Shown: positions 2,770-12,029 of the stretch, in pieces | Layout: each line of letters opens with the position of its first letter | Numbering within the stretch: position 1 is the first letter of the stretch | Origin: Candidatus Binatia bacterium | GTDB taxonomy: Bacteria; Desulfobacterota; Binatia; UBA12015 | Direction of reading: 5' to 3' | DNA: 64,000 nucleotides | Assembly (NCBI GenBank): GCA_029243485.1 | Contig: JAQWRY010000001.1 | Span: 248,001-312,000, forward strand | Made by a program: the position numbers and the translations under genes | Notes under the pieces: generated by a model | Database searches by the model: none | Seen by the model: only the letters and a program-made list of their open reading frames with translations | Told to the model about the DNA's origin: nothing

Positions 2770-3273
2770 CTAGCGAGCCGGGAGCGCCTCATCAAAGGCC
2801 GACACCGGCGCCTCCGGGAGAAGCCGCGGCCGGGTTACGAGGTCTCGCCAGAACCCGCAGCCATGGCCTCGATTATCGGTGGCGGAGCGGACCTCCTCGC
2901 CGAGGAAGATGCGCCCTTCCGCGGCGCCGAAACGTCGCCACTCGGGCGCACCGTCGCCGTTCGGGTCGCCGGTAGCCGCAAAGCGCGTCCAGTATCCGAC
3001 CATCGTGTCCGAGAGCTCTTGCTCGACGTCGGCAAAGGGCATCGCCCCAACCGGCACCCCGAAGACATAGCGAATCTCTGCTGAGTGGTACGCCCCGAGC
3101 TCGATGTCGGTATTCAGCGGAACCTGGAAAGCCGGCGTATTTGGTGCCCCAAGGCGCGCCGTCTCGATCGATGGACATCAGAAAGCCGCATCCCCGAACG
3201 CCACGACGAGGGCCATCACCAGGAACAGGGCCGACAGAGTCCGGAGAGAGTTCGTAGGAGTGGATTTCCCCAT
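2770..3273 (-). pseudogene. secreted type-B carboxylesterase gutted by an internal deletion
   Basis: Read on the minus strand, ATG 3273 begins a textbook signal peptide (MGKSTPTNSLRTL then SALFLVMALVVAFGDA) that runs into TGA at 3178-3180. Directly after it, in the same frame, comes the C-terminus of a type-B carboxylesterase: IELGAYHSAEIRYVF, which carries the catalytic histidine block, then LSDTMVGYWTRFAATGDPNG and the family C-terminal tail. The nucleophile elbow (GESAG) and acid region, some 350-400 residues, are missing. The protein cannot be an active esterase. An alternative in-frame ATG lies at 3288. A second fragment of the same family lies at 46907-47260. Confidence 0.8.
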
Positions 3274-3834: not shown

Positions 3835-4224
3835 ATGTCTTCGAACGTGGAGCGGCCCGGCTGGATGACCGGCATGGCGACCCTCTGCGCGGTCGCCGTC
3901 GTCGTACTCCTCGTGCGTGACCTGTTCATCCCGAGCACACGCGACGTGGAGATCTGGTTCGGGTTCGAAATTCACGGAGGCTGGGCGCGCGCGACCGCTC
4001 CGATCCACTGGGCGATCTTCGCATTCGGCGCGTGGGGCTTCTGGACCTCGCGACCCTGGATCGTTCCACTCGCCGCGTACTACACCTTCTACGGCGCGTT
4101 CAGCCACATCGTGTGGAGTGAAGTCAGCCCACACGGGAACGGAATCGCAATCGGACTAATCCAGGCTGCAGCCATCTCGGCGTTCGGCATTTTGCTGCTG
4201 CGCCAGGGGCGCTCGCTGCGCTGA
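3835..4224 (+). CDS. small integral membrane protein of unknown function
   Basis: 129 residues with four probable membrane segments: MATLCAVAVVVLLVRDLF, PIHWAIFAFGAWGFW, WIVPLAAYYTFYGAFSHIVW and GLIQAAAISAFGILLL. I do not recognise the family. The segments are joined by very short loops, with a charged, Trp-rich stretch (STRDVEIWFGFEIHGGW) between segments 1 and 2. It stands alone between repeat-rich spacer and a convergent gene. The ATG at 3835 has only a weak ribosome site (CCGAGCAG). Confidence 0.65.
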   Translation: MSSNVERPGWMTGMATLCAVAVVVLLVRDLFIPSTRDVEIWFGFEIHGGWARATAPIHWAIFAFGAWGFWTSRPWIVPLAAYYTFYGAFSHIVWSEVSPHGNGIAIGLIQAAAISAFGILLLRQGRSLR

Positions 4225-4268
4225 CCGCGCGCGCCGGCAACGGCCGAACCGATTAGAGCACTCGCCGG

Positions 4269-6716
4269 TCAGAGCGCCGCGAGGAACGCCAACAGCGCAT
4301 CGCGCTCGCCGCGCGGGAGCGCGAGGAACCGGTCGCGAGCCGCCGTGGCCTCCCCTTCGTGCAGCCCGATCGCCTTTTCTATCGTATCTGCGCGACCGTC
4401 GTGCAGGTACGGGCCGCTCTGCGCGACGCCCCACAGTGGAGTCGTTCGGAACTCCGTCGGTCCGGCGCGACCGGCCTCGACGCCGTCTCCGAGCGACGGT
4501 CCCATGTCATGCAGGAGGAGGTCCGAGTACAGACGGACGTCCGTCTCGCCCAGTCCGTTCTCTCCCGCGGGGAGGGACTCCACGTGGCACGAGCCACAGC
4601 CACTAGCCCCGAACGCCTCGGCGCCCGCAGTGACCGGAGTCGGGCCTGCCTCGGGCGGCGGCAGCAGCCGCAGGAAGTCGAAGAGCAGCTCGACCCGGGT
4701 CCCATCATCCTCGGGGTCGGACGTCGGATCGCAAGGCGAGATCTCGCCTTGGGGGAGCTCTTCGGCAGGCCGTCGCGGATTGGTGATGCCCATCTCCTCG
4801 ACGAGAGCCTTCTCGATGAAGGTACGCAGGTCGGCCTGCTCGGCCTTCCAACCGAACCGTCCCAACTTGTCACCCACCTGGTTCGCGCGGCCGGAAACTC
4901 CGTCGCCGTCCGAATCGTCCGGGTCGGCGTTGGCCAGAATCGCGTCGGCCGGGATCGTGTCGACCAGCCCGACGCCGTAGAGCGGAGGCGTCTGGCGACG
5001 CCGAGGGACGGCGTTCTTCGGGGTGGCTTCATGCTGCAGCGAGCAGTCCTTGGTTCGAATCACCTGCGCCTGCAGCAGCGGCCCACCCACCTCGTGCATG
5101 GGATCGAACCGCCCTGCGTCGTCGCGCCCGAACAGAGTCACCGTACGGTCACTGGATCCACCCGCCGTCGGGTGGCTGTGGCACTCCCCGCAGCTCGCAC
5201 CGTTGAAGGCAGGGCCCAAGCCCGTGCTCGGAGTCTCGACGCGGGTGAAGGTGTGGATGCCCCGGAGATACCGTTCCCGGGCAGCCCCCTCGAGCCCGAC
5301 CGGCACCGGCACGTCGCACGTCGTCGGCCCGCTCTGCTGTGGATCCTGAACCGCCGGACAGCGATCGCACACGTCGCCCACACCATCGAGATCACCGTCG
5401 AGTTGATCGGCGTTCGCGACCTTCGGGCAATTGTCCGGAGCACACATCCCGCCCTCGGTGCCGAATCCGTCCCCATCGACGTCGTTGCACGGGTCGCAGG
5501 CATCACCGATGCCGTCGCGATCTCGATCGCGCTGCGCGGGGTCGAAACTCAGAGGACAGAGATCACAGGCATCGCCGAACCCGTCGTCGTCAGCATCGGC
5601 CTGATCGACGTTCGGAACCTCGATGCAGTTGTCCGTCGCGCAGGTGTTCGCCTTGAACCCCGGATCACCAAATCCATCCGCATCCAGATCGGTGCACGGG
5701 TCGGACACGTTCGCGACTAGGTCGCCGTCGAAATCCGTCGAGACCTCATGCAAGTGCAGGATGTTGTTCACCGGCTCCGTGCCGTTGTAGTCGCGGAGAT
5801 TCGCGGGCTTGCAGTGATGCGCCACGACATGGCGCGCCTGGTTTCCGGACGAGCCGTGGAAGCGGAAGCAGTACTTCCCACTAATAGAGCCGCCGACGAC
5901 CTCGTTCTCGCGGGGAAGCCTTACCCAGCCGGGGTCCTGCGCGTACCCGCGGCTCGTGTAGCCGTCGAACACGAAGCCCGATCCCTCGAGAATGTTGTGC
6001 GCGAAAAGGTTCCCGGACGACTCGCCGCGAACGTGCACAATCGATCCACGAATCGTGTTCCGCGCGTAATACGCACCGCTCGTATGCTTGTGATAGATCG
6101 CGGACGTCCCAGCGGATTCGATGAGATTGTCGGTAATCTCACAGTCCACGCACCACAGGACGTAGATGCCTTCCTGTCCCGTCTTGATGATCTTGTTGTG
6201 CTGTACTTTCGCGCGAACCGTCCCGTCGCCGAGGTGGATGCCGTCCTGCTCATTCGCGCCCGCGTGATTGCCGCGAATCAGATGATCCGACGCCATCCCG
6301 CTCTCGGTTCCGCCGGCGAGCTCGATTCCGATCGTGTTTCCTTCGACGATGTTGTCGATGATCTGGTTTCGATCACCACCCCGCAGGCGGATACCGCGCT
6401 TGAAGGCGGTCACGTGACAGTTCTTCACCACGGCGTCGTTCACCTTGTCGAGGCGAATACCGTACGTGGATTTCGTCGTGCCGAGGCCCTCGATCGAGTG
6501 ACCGTTGCAGTCAAGCTCGGCGTGCGGCGTCATCCGCAAGCCGACGCGTTCACAGCCCACGAGATCTTCGGAGAGAACGACCTTCCCGATCACGTTGTCG
6601 CCGCACTTGCACGGATCCTCGGCGTCGCACTTGCCGGCTTCCGCCGACGCGGCCAGCAAGAGAACCAGGCAGAGCCCCTGGAGCCCGAGCAGGCACCACG
6701 TCTTCATCGTTTCCAT
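4269..6716 (-). CDS. secreted beta-helix / thrombospondin-3 / di-haem peroxidase-like fusion protein
   Basis: This 815-residue protein has a signal peptide (MKTWCLLGLQGL... SAEA). Residues about 30-330 have right-handed parallel beta-helix repeats of NosD/PbH1 type, with recurring motifs such as NQIIDNIVEGNTIGIEL and HNKIIKTGQEGIYV. Residues 340-465 are calcium-binding thrombospondin type-3 repeats (DLDADGFGD, DADDDGFGDACD, DRDRDGIGDACD, DGDLDGVGDVCD). The rest is a di-haem c-type oxidoreductase (MauG/DHOR, COG3488-like) with haem sites CGECH (509-513) and CGSCH (707-711) and a C-terminal LWGVAQSGPYLHDGRA block. It is expected outside the inner membrane. ATG 6716 is chosen because GAGGAG lies 8 bases upstream; ATG 6707 is the alternative. 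It is convergent with the small membrane protein. Confidence 0.85.
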   Translation of the reverse strand: METMKTWCLLGLQGLCLVLLLAASAEAGKCDAEDPCKCGDNVIGKVVLSEDLVGCERVGLRMTPHAELDCNGHSIEGLGTTKSTYGIRLDKVNDAVVKNCHVTAFKRGIRLRGGDRNQIIDNIVEGNTIGIELAGGTESGMASDHLIRGNHAGANEQDGIHLGDGTVRAKVQHNKIIKTGQEGIYVLWCVDCEITDNLIESAGTSAIYHKHTSGAYYARNTIRGSIVHVRGESSGNLFAHNILEGSGFVFDGYTSRGYAQDPGWVRLPRENEVVGGSISGKYCFRFHGSSGNQARHVVAHHCKPANLRDYNGTEPVNNILHLHEVSTDFDGDLVANVSDPCTDLDADGFGDPGFKANTCATDNCIEVPNVDQADADDDGFGDACDLCPLSFDPAQRDRDRDGIGDACDPCNDVDGDGFGTEGGMCAPDNCPKVANADQLDGDLDGVGDVCDRCPAVQDPQQSGPTTCDVPVPVGLEGAARERYLRGIHTFTRVETPSTGLGPAFNGASCGECHSHPTAGGSSDRTVTLFGRDDAGRFDPMHEVGGPLLQAQVIRTKDCSLQHEATPKNAVPRRRQTPPLYGVGLVDTIPADAILANADPDDSDGDGVSGRANQVGDKLGRFGWKAEQADLRTFIEKALVEEMGITNPRRPAEELPQGEISPCDPTSDPEDDGTRVELLFDFLRLLPPPEAGPTPVTAGAEAFGASGCGSCHVESLPAGENGLGETDVRLYSDLLLHDMGPSLGDGVEAGRAGPTEFRTTPLWGVAQSGPYLHDGRADTIEKAIGLHEGEATAARDRFLALPRGERDALLAFLAAL

Positions 6717-6921
6717 TCCAATAGCTCCTCGCAAACCTGGCTGTGCGGCGAAACGGGGAAGAAGAAACGGGGTGGGTGGGGCCGCCACTACGACTGTGAC
6801 AAAGCGAATATCCACTCCGCCCACCCCTGGACAAGAGAGAAACTTCTCGGTGCCCCTGGCTGGACGCAGGCCCACGGATGCCGCTAGGACGAAGAAAACC
6901 CGAGAAAGGCCGAGAGGAATC

Positions 6922-8091
6922 ATGGAAGATCTGAGCTTCACACTGCGCACCCGCAATGAGCCCGCACAGGCGCTGGGCTTGACCGAAACCGCCTTTGATC
7001 CGATCCGCGTCGGCTTCCTGGGCGACCTCGAGATGGACGTGAAGCGCATCGAGAAGATCTTCGCCGAGCCGGTCCTCCTGGCGTTCGAGGAAGAGATCGC
7101 GAGCGGGCGCCTGAACCGTCCGGTCGAGCTGATCGTCGAGCCGGCGTTCGCCCTCCCCCATCACGATTGGCAGGTCGCCGCACGCGCCCTCGAGCGCTTG
7201 AAGGAGCGCGGCTGCGTCGCCGTCGTGGGGCCCCTCATCTCCGACAACGCCCGCACTCTGCGGGCGACCGTCGAACGGCTGGAGCTCCCCTGCATCACCT
7301 GGTCGGGAACGTCCGACTGGTTCGGCGAGTACTGCTTCCGGCTCGGGAACGGCGGCTGCACCGAGGAGGGCCAGCTCATGGGGTCCTGGTTGAAGCACCA
7401 GGGCATCGAAACGGTCGGGATTTTGAACGAGCTCTCGCCCAATGGCCGCGAGTACTTCGAGTCGTTTCGTTGGGCGTGCCACCAGTTCGACCTGCGCATC
7501 GTCGGGGTCGAGATGATCACGCAGACGCCGACCGATCTCGAGAAGAGACTCGGACGGCTGAAGGACTCCGGCGCGCAAGGCCTCGCGTACATGGGCTTCG
7601 GCTGGCCGACGACGCTCATGCGGCCGATGTTCGAGCGACTCCAGTGGGATCCGCCACGGATCATGACCACCGCGTTTCAGTTCTGCTACCGCTCGAAGGA
7701 ATGGATGCAGGCCCTCAAGGGCTGGGTCGGCCTCGACCAGGTCTGCGAAGAGAACCCGCTGTACCCGAAGTTCCTCGACAACTTCGAAGCGCACTTCGGC
7801 TGGCGCCCGCCGAACCCCAACACCGTTCCGGTGCTCTCGTACGACTGCGGCCGCGTCATCGCCGAAGGGATCTTCCGCGCCGACACCCTGAGCGGCCCGG
7901 GCATGAAGCGCGGGATCGAGCGCATGCGCTTTGCGCCGAGCTACACCGGCGGCCCGCGCACGCACATCGCGGCGGGCCCCTACGATCACCAGATGTTCAA
8001 GGGGGATTGGCTCCTCTATCGCTCGATCGAGGAACGGGCCGATGGAGACGTTCAGACCAAATTCGAAGGTTACTTCGAGCCCAACGTCTGA
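6922..8091 (+). CDS. type-1 periplasmic-binding-fold protein without a signal peptide
   Basis: The 389 residues resemble branched-chain amino-acid/amide binding proteins (Peripla_BP_6): PIRVGFLGDL opens the first lobe, VAVVGPLISDNARTL is the ligand loop, TWSGTSDWFGEYCFR follows, and TVGILNELSPNGREYFESF begins lobe two. No export signal precedes the domain; the N-terminus is polar (MEDLSFTLRTRNEP). No permease or ATPase gene is near. It may be a cytoplasmic ligand sensor comparable to AmiC, or an orphan binding protein with a mis-set start. AGAGGA lies 5 bases before ATG 6922, which supports this start. Confidence 0.75.
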   Translation: MEDLSFTLRTRNEPAQALGLTETAFDPIRVGFLGDLEMDVKRIEKIFAEPVLLAFEEEIASGRLNRPVELIVEPAFALPHHDWQVAARALERLKERGCVAVVGPLISDNARTLRATVERLELPCITWSGTSDWFGEYCFRLGNGGCTEEGQLMGSWLKHQGIETVGILNELSPNGREYFESFRWACHQFDLRIVGVEMITQTPTDLEKRLGRLKDSGAQGLAYMGFGWPTTLMRPMFERLQWDPPRIMTTAFQFCYRSKEWMQALKGWVGLDQVCEENPLYPKFLDNFEAHFGWRPPNPNTVPVLSYDCGRVIAEGIFRADTLSGPGMKRGIERMRFAPSYTGGPRTHIAAGPYDHQMFKGDWLLYRSIEERADGDVQTKFEGYFEPNV

Positions 8092-8236: not shown

Positions 8237-9502
8237 ATGAACCCACGCCGTCCCCGCCCCACCTCAAGCTTCGATCCGCTACGCACGCGCCGCGCCCTCC
8301 TTCGCGAGGGCGTCTATGGTGCCGGCCTCCTCGCTGTCGGCTCCTTCCTCAGCGCCTGTGGCGACACGACGGTCGCAGGCAGCCAGCCGCGACAAAGCAA
8401 CATTCCCAACGTCGGCCCACTCGGCGCGCCTGACGAGAACGGCATCCGTCTCCCGAACGGCTTCCGGTCCCGCATCCTGGCGGCCTCCGGTGAGCCCGTC
8501 CCGGGGAGCGGGGGGTACCTCTGGCACGGTGCGCCCGACGGCGCCGCAACCTTCCTGCAGCGGGACGGCGGCTGGATCTACACCGTCAACAGCGAGATCC
8601 CGAACGGCGACGGCGGTGCGAGCGCAATCCGCTTCGATTCCGACGGCAACGTGGTCGACGCGTACCGGATTCTGTCCGGCACGAATTTCAACTGTGCCGG
8701 GGGCCCGACGCCGTGGGGAACGTGGCTCTCGTGCGAAGAAGACTTCTCCGGCCACGGCGCCGTCTTCGAATGTGACCCGACCGGCGCAACCGAGGCGGTG
8801 CGGCAGGCCGCGATGGGCCTGTTCGTGCACGAGGCGGTCACCGTCGACGACTTGCGTGGGCAGCTCTACATGACCGAAGACATGCCGGACGGCGGCTTCT
8901 ATCGCTTCACGCCGAGCAGCTATCCCAACCTGGGTAGTGGCACGCTCGAGATCGCGCGGGTCGCCGACCTCGACGCCGTCCACGCGGGTGGCGTCAGTTC
9001 CGTCGCGTGGCTCACTGTGCCCGACCCGCTCGCGACGGACGAGTTCACGCGGTACCAGGTCGAGGGGAGCACCGGATTCCTCGGCGGCGAAGGCATCTGG
9101 GAACGCAACGGACACGCCTTCTTTGCAACCAAGTTCGACAATCGCGTCTACCACTACGACATCGAAGCCCAGACGATCTGCACGCTCTATTCCGCAGCGG
9201 ACGACGGCGGTGTTCTCACCGGCGCCGACAACGTCACGATCGCCGACCTGGGTGGTGAGGTTCTCGTCGCCGAAGATGGCGGCGACATGCAGATCATCGC
9301 ACTGGTCCCGGGCGCGGACGAGTGCGATCTGAATTCCATCGTCCCCCTCTTGCAGGTCGTGGGCCAGGACGACTCCGAGGTCACCGCCCCGGTCTTCGAC
9401 CCCTCCGGCACTCGCCTGTATTTCGGGTCGCAACGAGGGTTCGGCGGAGACTTCTTCGCAAGCGGCATCACGTACGAGGTGAGCGGACCATTTCTCGTGT
9501 GA
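8237..9502 (+). CDS. PhoX-like (DUF839) exported lipoprotein
   Basis: 421 residues. The N-terminus has a twin-arginine-like and lipobox region (RTRRALLREGVYGAGLL then SFLSAC), suggesting Tat export with a lipid anchor at the cysteine. The mature part looks like DUF839/PhoX: RLPNGFRSRILAASGEPV, NSEIPNGDGGASAIRF, CAGGPTPWGTWLSCEED, and VHEAVTVDDLRGQLYMTED, which are characteristic blade sequences of PhoX-type six-bladed propellers. PhoX enzymes are calcium/iron phosphatases, but many DUF839 proteins have no known reaction. It is followed 18 bases later by a cupin gene on the same strand, probably co-transcribed. Confidence 0.8.
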   Translation: MNPRRPRPTSSFDPLRTRRALLREGVYGAGLLAVGSFLSACGDTTVAGSQPRQSNIPNVGPLGAPDENGIRLPNGFRSRILAASGEPVPGSGGYLWHGAPDGAATFLQRDGGWIYTVNSEIPNGDGGASAIRFDSDGNVVDAYRILSGTNFNCAGGPTPWGTWLSCEEDFSGHGAVFECDPTGATEAVRQAAMGLFVHEAVTVDDLRGQLYMTEDMPDGGFYRFTPSSYPNLGSGTLEIARVADLDAVHAGGVSSVAWLTVPDPLATDEFTRYQVEGSTGFLGGEGIWERNGHAFFATKFDNRVYHYDIEAQTICTLYSAADDGGVLTGADNVTIADLGGEVLVAEDGGDMQIIALVPGADECDLNSIVPLLQVVGQDDSEVTAPVFDPSGTRLYFGSQRGFGGDFFASGITYEVSGPFLV

Positions 9503-10049: not shown

Positions 10050-12029
10050 ATGAAGATCCTTCGGAGAACCGTCCTCTCGATCTGCGCGGTGGTGGCGATC
10101 GTGCTCCTCGCGGTTACCGCCGTCGTCCTTCTTTCGGTCCGGCGAGACAGCGCGGCGCAGGAGACCCTGGGCCGGCTCGCACCCAAAATCGACACCGATG
10201 GGCGACGCGTCCGCGACCTCAACAAGAACGGCTCCGTCGACCCATACGAAGACCCCCGCGTCGCCACAGACCAACGCGTCGAGGACCTGGTCGGCCAGAT
10301 GACGGTCGCCGAGAAGGTCGGCCTCATGCTCCAGCCTCCGATCTTCATGGAGCCCGACGGAAGCCTCAAAGACGGATGGGGCGGAGCTTTCATGCAGGGC
10401 TTCGGAACGGCTGAGGCCATAGCGGGCAGACAGATCCGACACTTCAACCTGAGGAACTCGTCCGACTGCGAGGCGATGGCCGAGTGGAACAACCGGCTTC
10501 AGGAGATGGCGGAACGAACCCGCCTCGGCATTCCTGTCACGATCAGCACCGACCCGCGTCACGGGGTCCGTGATGCGGGCGCCGTGACGTCCGTGGGCAC
10601 CAAAGGCTTCTCACTCTGGCCCGAGCCCCTCGGCCTCGCCGCCACCCGAGACCGTGCCCTCGTGAAGCGCTTCGGGGAGATCGCGAACCAGGAGTACCGC
10701 GCGGTCGGAATTCGCACGGCGCTGCACCCCATGGCCGACCTCGCCACGGAGCCCCGCTGGGGCCGGGCGATCGGAACGTTCGGAGAAGACGTCGGACTCG
10801 TGTCGGAGATGGTCGTCGCCTACATCGATGGATTCCAGGGACCGGAGATCGGCAACGAGAGCGTGCTCTGCATGACCAAGCATTTTCCGGGCGGCGGGCC
10901 GCAGAAGGACGGGCTCGACGCCCACTTCAGCTACGGCGGGGACCAAGCGTATCCCGGCGACGCATTCGAAACGCACCTGATCCCGTTTGAAGCCGCGATC
11001 GCGGCGGGGACCGCGCAGATGATGCCCTACTACGGCGTACCGGTGGGCCAAACGAGCGAGGACGTCGCCATGGGATTCAACCGTGACGTCATCACCGGGC
11101 TGCTGCGCGATCGCTTCGGGTTCGACGGCGTGGTGTGCACGGACTGGCAGATCGTTGCGCCGAAGGGCGCCGGCCCGATCGAGGTCATCCATGCCCGCTC
11201 CTTCGGAGTCGACGACCTGTCGATTCCGCAGCGCTACCGCAAGGCGCTCGACGCGGGCGTCGATCAGTTCGGCGGAGAAGAGGATCCGGCGCCGCTGATC
11301 GGGTTGGTCGAGTCAGGCGCGCTCCCCGAGGAGCGCCTCGACACGTCGGTTCGTCGGATTCTCCGCGACCAGTTCCGGCTCGGCCTCTTCGACGACCCAT
11401 ACGTGGATGCGAGCGCAGCGGTCGAGATCTGCGACCAACCAGAGTTTCACGCCGCCGGCGCCGAAGCCCAACGCCGATCGATCGTGCTCCTACAAAACGA
11501 CGAAGACCTCCAAGGCGACCCGCGCCTCCCCCTCGCACCCGAAACCCGCCTCTACATCGAGAACATCGACCCCTCCGTCGCGGCGCACTACGGGACCGTC
11601 GTCCCCACGCTCGACGAGGCCGACGTCGCGCTCATTCGCATGCAGACGCCGTGGGTCGAGCATCCACCGGAAACGATCGGAGACCGGATTTTCAACACGC
11701 TCTTCCATCAGGGCGACCTCGACTTCAAGGGGGAGACGCTGGAGCACCTCCAGACCGTCGCGCGCACGAAGCCGACGATCCTCGCGATCTACCTCGACCG
11801 CCCCGCCGTCCTCGCGGGCGTCGCCGAGTACACCGCCGGGATCCTCGGCCACTTCGGCGCGACCGACGAAGCCCTTCTCGACATTGCGTTCGGGCGCTCG
11901 ACCCCCCGCGGCAAGCTTCCAATCGAGCTCCCCTCGTCGATGGAGGCGGTACGGGGGCAGAAGGAAGACCTCCCGCATGACTCGACCTCCCCTCTCTTCC
12001 CCTTCGGCTTCGGGCTTACCTACGACTAA
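10050..12029 (+). CDS. glycoside hydrolase family 3 beta-glycosidase, membrane-anchored or exported
   Basis: 659 residues that hydrolyse non-reducing beta-linked sugars with retention. An N-terminal hydrophobic segment (ICAVVAIVLLAVTAVVLL, about 11-28) anchors or exports it. GH3 domain 1 shows GIPVTISTDPRHG, RWGRAIGTFGED, and TKHFPGGGPQKDG, and the nucleophile is Asp365 in VVCTDWQIV. The C-terminal sandwich domain carries RRSIVLLQND and ends FPFGFGLTYD. Before the catalytic domain, DLNKNGSVDPYEDP resembles a dockerin/EF-hand calcium loop. It starts at ATG 10050 and is followed 28 bases later by the aldo/keto reductase. Confidence 0.88.
   Translation: MKILRRTVLSICAVVAIVLLAVTAVVLLSVRRDSAAQETLGRLAPKIDTDGRRVRDLNKNGSVDPYEDPRVATDQRVEDLVGQMTVAEKVGLMLQPPIFMEPDGSLKDGWGGAFMQGFGTAEAIAGRQIRHFNLRNSSDCEAMAEWNNRLQEMAERTRLGIPVTISTDPRHGVRDAGAVTSVGTKGFSLWPEPLGLAATRDRALVKRFGEIANQEYRAVGIRTALHPMADLATEPRWGRAIGTFGEDVGLVSEMVVAYIDGFQGPEIGNESVLCMTKHFPGGGPQKDGLDAHFSYGGDQAYPGDAFETHLIPFEAAIAAGTAQMMPYYGVPVGQTSEDVAMGFNRDVITGLLRDRFGFDGVVCTDWQIVAPKGAGPIEVIHARSFGVDDLSIPQRYRKALDAGVDQFGGEEDPAPLIGLVESGALPEERLDTSVRRILRDQFRLGLFDDPYVDASAAVEICDQPEFHAAGAEAQRRSIVLLQNDEDLQGDPRLPLAPETRLYIENIDPSVAAHYGTVVPTLDEADVALIRMQTPWVEHPPETIGDRIFNTLFHQGDLDFKGETLEHLQTVARTKPTILAIYLDRPAVLAGVAEYTAGILGHFGATDEALLDIAFGRSTPRGKLPIELPSSMEAVRGQKEDLPHDSTSPLFPFGFGLTYD

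Follow-up and report, generated by a model that had tools for sequence, protein, structure and literature searches.

The 64,000-nucleotide window analysed here (Candidatus Binatia bacterium, assembly GCA_029243485.1, contig JAQWRY010000001.1, positions 248,001 to 312,000) encodes an 815-residue protein, P0001, in which a right-handed parallel beta-helix, a stretch of thrombospondin type 3 (TSP3) repeats and a C-terminal di-haem oxidoreductase domain (DHOR, PF06537) are joined in a single reading frame. As far as the searched genomes show, the fusion has been conserved within a single lineage, and in the class as a whole DHOR is a C-terminal head carried on changing N-termini. We tentatively favour a reading of P0001 as an exported, calcium-binding modular redox enzyme, that is, a tethered extracellular enzyme of the peroxidase type whose helix and calcium arm would sit at a target and which would work with a beta-propeller partner. 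Three elements of this account are new relative to the preliminary description of the stretch: the modularity of DHOR, the link to a PD40 propeller gene and the conserved residue His786.

Architecture and distribution of the fusion

The gene and its modules lie in the window as follows:

4269-6716, minus strand: whole gene of P0001, 815 residues, beta-helix / TSP3 / DHOR (open frame, Pfam and relatives of the same order)
6636-6716, minus strand: putative signal peptide, residues ~1-27 (by eye, from a hydrophobic stretch and an AEA end; helix 2-21 in the model)
5736-6635, minus strand: right-handed parallel beta-helix, residues ~28-327 (Pfam, model and fold match; R110, R112, H161, E182, K210 and R230 conserved on one strand class)
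5331-5726, minus strand: TSP3 repeat arm, residues ~331-462 (Pfam, structure-sequence matches, DxDxDGxGD at 343, 374, 397 and 440)
4272-5330, minus strand: DHOR (PF06537) di-haem c-type cytochrome domain, residues 463-815 (Pfam, alignment, model and fold match)

The preliminary description, which did not name the minus strand, had proposed one protein with three modules in this order, at least four DxDxDGxGD calcium loops and two CxxCH motifs 198 residues apart. All of this was borne out by the single frame, the Pfam matches, the same order in relatives, the four loops at the residues listed and the CxxCH motifs at 509 and 707. The frame is open as far as 7049; translation from the ATG at 6716 gives a signal-peptide-like start, and a GGAG stretch lies upstream of this codon. 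Pfam matches above the cut-off are Beta_helix (PF13229, 3.3e-13; 50 bits against a cut-off of 25.9), NosD (PF05048, 9.6e-13) and DHOR, formerly DUF1111 (6.1e-36; 124.4 bits against 22), and TSP_3 falls just under it (1.7e-5; 24.8 bits against 25). When P0001 was shuffled 20,000 times, its six DxDxDG motifs were never reached and two CxxCH motifs were reached in 11 shuffles. At third codon positions the GC content reaches 0.81 (helix) and 0.82 (DHOR), in both clearly above the other positions; the TSP3 part has 0.70 there, close to its first-position value (0.72).

The same three-domain order, which the preliminary description had suggested seeking in other genomes, was found at 11 loci in nine of 14 genomes from the window's family by a scan of 148 genomes of the class (E 1e-60, best six candidates per genome scored), and in none of the other 134. 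The nine are G000 (the window's own), G001, G002, G003, G006, G009, G010 (two copies), G011 and G013; contig ends cut the N-terminus in G001, the locus G003:C52 and the C-terminus in G009. A phylum-wide sample of 395 genomes, with the window's genome as sole member of its family, gave no other match at E 1e-60 among the best two candidates per genome. A pattern-based scan of a species genome collection returned 65 loci, and the two that span the helix and the rest are both in VGTK01 (Deltaproteobacteria bacterium isolate K_Offshore_80m_m2_211) and are identical to the two G010 copies. Because the module order is kept in independent assemblies, we rejected the idea that read errors had created the fusion. 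An open-access literature search returned no paper on a beta-helix / TSP3 / DHOR fusion; modular DHOR proteins as such are already known, and the present architecture is a further variant.

The di-haem head

The following positions of the DHOR head are central to its interpretation (bCcP, bacterial cytochrome c peroxidase):

5178-5192, minus strand: first haem site, C509-G-E-C512-H513, predicted five-coordinate peroxidatic haem (invariant, 30 of 30 rows of alignment A2)
4848-4850, minus strand: W623 of GRFGWKA, aligned to a Trp of bCcP 3o5c (W in 27 of 30 rows, R in 3)
4794-4796, minus strand: E641, aligned to a Glu of 3o5c (E or D in 25 of 30 rows; W in 2, Q in 2, H in 1)
4584-4598, minus strand: second haem site, C707-G-S-C710-H711, predicted six-coordinate electron-transfer haem (invariant, 30 of 30 rows of A2)
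4401-4403, minus strand: H772 of PYLHDG, invariant, 14 residues ahead of H786, a spacing as for His261-Met275 of 1eb7
4359-4361, minus strand: H786, invariant, predicted to be the second haem's sixth ligand (a position held by Met in bCcP and by Tyr in MauG and BthA)

Alignment A2 holds 30 rows. The loci contain 43 DHOR stretches, or 39 without four copies from the window's own genome (three of the window gene and one of the gene on contig C85), and A2 takes 29 of these plus the window; not included are second copies (L111 twice, L104, L004) and rows that are fragmentary or gapped (L016 of G011, L032, L006, L109, L105 twice). The blocks RFGWKA, LLLHDMG, RTxPLWG and HDGRA are present together with the two CxxCH motifs, and both CxxCH motifs, H736, H772-D773 and H786 are invariant across all rows. 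The Trp of 3o5c aligned with W623 we take to be the inter-haem Trp, and the Glu aligned with E641 is presumably the acid-base Glu. A profile built from the 30 domains recovered bCcPs from 3e-8 and the gamma subunit of hydrazine synthase (HZS) at 1.8e-6; its top row was a cytochrome c555 trimer (2.1e-15), in which one CxxCH region was matched three times over.

The AlphaFold2 model of the head (pLDDT 91, pTM 0.90) matches HZS gamma (Z 16.2, 3.2 Å, 219 aligned residues), MauG 3rlm (Z 15.9, 3.5 Å, 242) and bCcP 1iqc (Z 15.7, 3.2 Å, 225), which are tied, followed by MauG-like 6e1c (Z 15.1, 3.4 Å, 228) and BthA (Z 14.6, 4.2 Å, 251). Rows 1-30 of this comparison cover Z 14.6-16.2, 219-251 aligned residues and 3.2-4.2 Å, and the latex oxygenase RoxA is a weaker match (Z 9.4, 4.1 Å, 245). 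As modelled, the head shares the bCcP/MauG fold over most of the domain. The MauG/DHOR redox domain of the preliminary description thus holds for the fold and the two haem sites; the comparison with MauG needs amending at the sixth ligand of the six-coordinate haem, where MauG has Tyr and all 30 rows of A2 have His, a position set by bCcP alignment with one of three alignments gapped.

This residue carries much of the functional argument. According to PMC6405878, the corresponding haem is Met-His ligated in bCcP and Tyr-His ligated in MauG and BthA, and Tyr-to-His variants of the latter two lose the bis-Fe(IV) near-infrared signal, the BthA variant retaining peroxide turnover. Because His786 sits where bCcP has Met and MauG has Tyr, the second haem is predicted to be bis-His and the enzyme to be peroxidase-type rather than MauG-type. 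MauG, BthA, MbnH and the bCcPs have the fold and two CxxCH motifs in common with the window's DHOR, and the bCcP Trp and Glu positions are mostly kept in DHOR; the window protein differs from them in the His at the ligand position, in its long N-terminal modules and in the DHOR-specific LLLHDMG block. The window's genome has three Cytochrom_C_asm matches above the cut-off, so haem attachment is likely possible.

The beta-helix and the calcium arm

The helix part of the full model is mostly above pLDDT 90 and shows the coiled fold expected from the Pfam match. Fold comparison, with Z 26.8-32.1 among the matches listed (best 50), placed it with AlgE6 (Z 32.1, 4.0 Å, 290 aligned), AlgE4 (Z 31.4, 3.2 Å, 283), NosD of the NosDFY transporter (Z 29.8, 3.5 Å, 280), GH87 (Z 29.5, 2.5 Å, 284) and AlgG (Z 28.9, 2.3 Å, 276). 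Across 19 aligned helices, eight of them from proteins without DHOR or TSP3, charged residues are conserved at 11 columns in 17 rows or more. Eight of the 11 (D90, R110, R112, H161, E182, K210, R230 and R285) lie on the same strand class of successive coils, the classes having been assigned by eye from the strand pattern of the model. To judge from the model, this ladder looks like a working groove and not like mere scaffold.

The catalytic motif of alginate epimerases is DPH. Its absence from the helix led us to reject an alginate C5-epimerase of the AlgE/AlgG kind, and we therefore claim no enzymatic activity for this module; the NCBIfam model for NosD copper maturation (TIGR04247) was likewise under its cut-off (25.3 against 300 bits). 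The polymer-type helix proposed in the preliminary description is supported by the fold of polysaccharide epimerases and hydrolases and by the charged ladder, and is weakened by the missing DPH motif and by the fit to NosD of the NosDFY transporter as well. Helix and TSP3 occur together without DHOR in a 431-residue gene (G010:C220), and two further helix-TSP3 matches stop in the TSP3 part (G009:C35 and G013:C479). Free-standing members of the helix family were also observed at L135 (G000:C28) and L115 (G005:C6) in similar gene surroundings that include, by eye, acyl-CoA dehydrogenase-like, enoyl-CoA hydratase-like and small esterase genes.

For the TSP3 stretch, solved COMP and thrombospondin-2 come up at 9e-27 to 1.4e-25, and TSP_3 (PF02412) scores 28.8 bits in the homologue at L097 and 22.1 bits in that at L093 (cut-off 25). 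Besides the four canonical loops there is a looser DxDxDG loop at 412 and a further DxDxDG at 601, inside DHOR. The calcium-stiffened arm of the preliminary description is plausible by likeness to thrombospondin, whereas the model gives the stretch low confidence (pLDDT ~45-73 in blocks of ten). As a separate observation, the fusion gene at L101 (G003:C126, ~8880-9300, minus strand) has one in-frame TGA within TSP3 where its relatives are uninterrupted; a selenocysteine, a broken gene and an error are all possible. Matches to selenocysteine tRNA score 65-76 bits in the four genomes of the genus (cut-off 47) and 47-48 bits in three other family genomes; control genomes give a match in 14 of 14, above the cut-off in five.

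DHOR behind changing N-terminal modules

Several architectures in the class end in DHOR. DUF7453-TSP3-DHOR occurs in G024 and, with a weak TSP3 score, in G039; a PD40 propeller and DHOR share one frame in G039:C25; and DUF4215-DHOR and, in G031, F5/8C-DHOR were also found. The window's own genome encodes a protein with two CBM56 carbohydrate-binding modules (CBMs) ahead of a C-terminal DHOR (G000:C85, L114:6484-9015, plus strand; relative in G002 at 68%), and these are the genome's only two CBM56 matches. This protein is like P0001 in carrying DHOR at the C-terminus of a modular chain, and differs in that a curated carbohydrate-binding module replaces helix and TSP3 and in that its DHOR belongs to a distant subfamily. 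Two side observations concern further arrangements: two DHOR domains stand in tandem in one frame at L111 (G031:C20, 6671-9301, plus strand), and at L149 and L150 (G037, G030) DHOR has an N-terminal pair of calcium-loop repeats that is dockerin-like by eye and has no Pfam name up to E 0.01.

In the DHOR tree the helix, DUF7453, PD40 and DUF4215 forms make up one clade of 15 rows (support 99/98), separate from a clade of eight stand-alone rows and from a clade of five that holds the CBM56 and F5/8C forms. Here 'stand-alone' is judged by frame length and by lack of a match to the module queries, only L110 having been given to Pfam. The tree leaves the order among the helix, DUF7453, PD40 and DUF4215 forms unsettled, the helix fusion may have arisen once or twice (fewest changes, 2), and two L026 rows on long branches are unsurely placed.

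The closest published parallel is Xyn65 of Gilvimarinus xylanilyticus (PMC9638140), which the excerpt describes as GH26-CBM31-CBM6-Big-DHOR: likewise a secreted, modular protein with C-terminal DHOR after polysaccharide-directed modules, differing in its proven xylanase and CBMs where the window protein has a beta-helix and TSP3 arm. Its authors propose that DHOR acts on the polymer by redox chemistry or that it has a binding or stabilising role. The idea of a polymer-tethered redox head finds its best support in this placement of DHOR behind carbohydrate-binding modules, in Xyn65 and in the CBM56-DHOR protein that the window's genome itself encodes. The preliminary description's oxidase on a polymer draws strength from this architecture, with a polymer as its putative anchor.

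A putative PD40 propeller partner

Relatives of the fusion fall into clade A (the window, G010:C6, G006, G002, G001, G003 and G011) and clade B (G010:C38, G013 and G009); gene starts at their loci come from a simple codon-usage script. At five clade-A loci (G010:C6, G006:C659, G001:C146, G003:C126 and G002:C325, the last cut by the contig end) a PD40 beta-propeller gene lies directly downstream. Its product has ~650-675 residues where complete, a signal-peptide-like start and a conserved tail. The DHOR stop and the PD40 start overlap (TGATG) at three of the five junctions and are 28 bases apart at the other two. A sixth adjacent case is likely: G003:C52 stops in DHOR at residue 616, while G003:C114 starts in DHOR at 626 and has a PD40 gene after a further 28 bases, and the two may be ends of one locus. 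In G011 the PD40 gene is ~4 kb away on the same strand.

A relative with PD40 and the tail is found in all seven family genomes with clade A and was seen in none of the seven without it (weakly tested for G007 and G008), a contrast that was framed after seeing the data and ignores kinship. Of the latter seven, G004 and G012 lack any match, G009 and G013 match in the tail only, in another gene, G005 has PD40 repeats without the tail, and G007 and G008 have weak best E-values of 4.5e-8 and 1.1e-14. The propeller link holds even where fusion and PD40 genes lie apart. Among the other genes near the fusion, the window has a GH3 gene ~3.3 kb away, and the neighbours in relatives are mixed. A carboxylesterase remnant in the window (2773-3042, minus strand) corresponds to the C-terminal part of that family (PF00135 positions 453-500).

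Weighing the interpretations

In the tethered peroxidase that we favour, the N-terminal haem (His513, with Glu641 and Trp623 nearby) would be open and peroxide-reactive, and the C-terminal haem (His711 and the aligned His786) would be six-coordinate, bis-His and dedicated to electron transfer. The charged groove of the beta-helix may bind, or also alter, an extended polymer or a surface partner, which could be anchor or substrate, and the TSP3 calcium arm would hold the redox head away from the helix target. The PD40 propeller would be the usual partner in the window's clade, possibly in direct contact, its gene being the next one downstream in most relatives and located elsewhere in the genome of the window. 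Peroxide would be the oxidant, and export would probably extend beyond the periplasm.

A number of observations weigh against this account. The PD40 relative of the window's genome is not adjacent but sits on a separate contig (G000:C32; 45% over residues 4-655); what follows the fusion gene is a small plus-strand frame, the esterase remnant and an AMP-binding enzyme. Clade B has no PD40 neighbour at G010:C38 and G013, with G009 lacking downstream sequence. The preliminary description had raised recurrence beside polysaccharide genes, and this was not found: none recurs among the neighbours examined, a minority of which were run through Pfam, and the PD40 gene is the one that does recur. A scan of 3900-7100 gave no promoter-like site at the gene, and of its three terminator-like sites (2.0 expected) none was accepted as real. 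For the head itself, Foldseek superpositions are loose (TM by query length 0.28-0.50 among the matches listed, best 50), H786 falls on the bCcP Met in two of three alignments (1eb7 and 1iqc) and on a gap in 3o5c, the HZS gamma residue aligned with H786 is a Thr, and H736, which is also invariant, stays in consideration as an alternative ligand candidate.

The propeller link admits other readings. In one, DHOR would be a maturase like MauG or MbnH: through long-range electron transfer it would oxidise residues of the PD40 propeller encoded alongside it, in the way that MauG acts on the methylamine dehydrogenase precursor. The downstream and partly overlapping PD40 gene of clade-A relatives, the one natural PD40-DHOR frame and the fold matches to MauG and 6e1c all speak for it. 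Because of His786, however, we rank it only as a rival: the invariant His stands where the Tyr-to-His variants of MauG and BthA lose their bis-Fe(IV) signal. Moreover, the NCBIfam models for MbnH (TIGR04039, 13.4 against 362.85 bits) and MauG-like proteins (15.3 bits) score far below cut-off, and the CBM56-DHOR gene at L114 has no called PD40 gene next to it. We consider maturation unlikely, with a real chance nonetheless. A complex like the HZS of anammox bacteria, in which DHOR (gamma) and propeller (beta) would form a stable multi-subunit enzyme for a small molecule with helix and TSP3 as mere scaffold, seems very unlikely to us. HZS gamma heads the tied fold matches, a propeller partner is present here, and the excerpt of PMC12607021 describes a bCcP-like gamma subunit with a bis-His gamma-II haem adjoining a beta-propeller beta subunit. 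Yet gamma fits the 30-DHOR profile well only over its last 61 residues, its haem-ligand His is out of register with H786, and clade B is without the neighbouring propeller. No alpha subunit is seen here and no third conserved neighbour gene was noticed by eye, and HZS as described there is without helix and TSP3. By analogy, HZS may serve as a precedent for a bCcP-like bis-His subunit beside a propeller, and MauG for action on a partner protein.

A partnership with a lytic polysaccharide monooxygenase (LPMO), with DHOR as electron donor or peroxide source, has been proposed in similar form for the CBM-haem proteins Cbp2D and Cbp2E of Cellvibrio. Excerpts of PMC12542752 and PMC10916295 present these as large proteins that likewise combine carbohydrate-binding modules with c-type haem domains, named X158, X183 and X132 and there not called DHOR, with no mention of a helix or TSP3. 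The window's genome has one AA10 LPMO (4.3e-43; L145, G000:C70, contig 11025-11519) as well as the CBM56-DHOR protein, and a Cbp2D haem domain could feed an LPMO, if slowly, whereas X183 domains of a shipworm symbiont failed to do so (PMC10916295, in excerpt). Tested by co-occurrence, the partnership is not supported, because an LPMO is above cut-off in three of nine fusion genomes (G000, G003, G006) and in one of five family genomes without the fusion (G005); G010, rated 100% complete and with two fusions, has no LPMO match. We regard it as highly improbable. Across 58 genomes, incidentally, an AA10 LPMO is above cut-off in four, the window's included, all of the same family. Iron uptake has the faintest chance: imelysin genomic contexts include DUF1111 (that is, DHOR) di-haem peroxidases (PMC3143127, in excerpt), but no imelysin or iron transporter appears among the neighbours given to Pfam, not all having been scanned. 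Quite unlikely, too, is a structural role, in which the DHOR head would have lost its enzymatic function and become part of the cell surface or of a matrix. TSP3 proteins are frequently found at the surface or in a matrix, and the MtsC cohesion model matches the TSP3 stretch, though far below its cut-off (60.2 against 350 bits); against this, the window protein keeps all haem and ligand positions.

Implications for DHOR proteins

A broader and rather unlikely extension of the tethered peroxidase would make DHOR a general plug-in redox head for extracellular polymers, with the window's clade two-headed: the helix groove would work on the polymer, the haem head would oxidise the polymer or its products with peroxide, and the propeller would be electron partner or substrate. 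If true, DHOR would be a di-haem counterpart of the auxiliary-activity enzymes, set on interchangeable anchors such as beta-helices, CBM56, F5/8C and propellers. To our knowledge hardly any function has been tested for DHOR. Its repeated occurrence at the C-terminus behind polymer- or partner-directed modules offers a concrete hypothesis of tethered extracellular redox chemistry, one that the bis-His prediction and the linked propeller gene open to direct testing.

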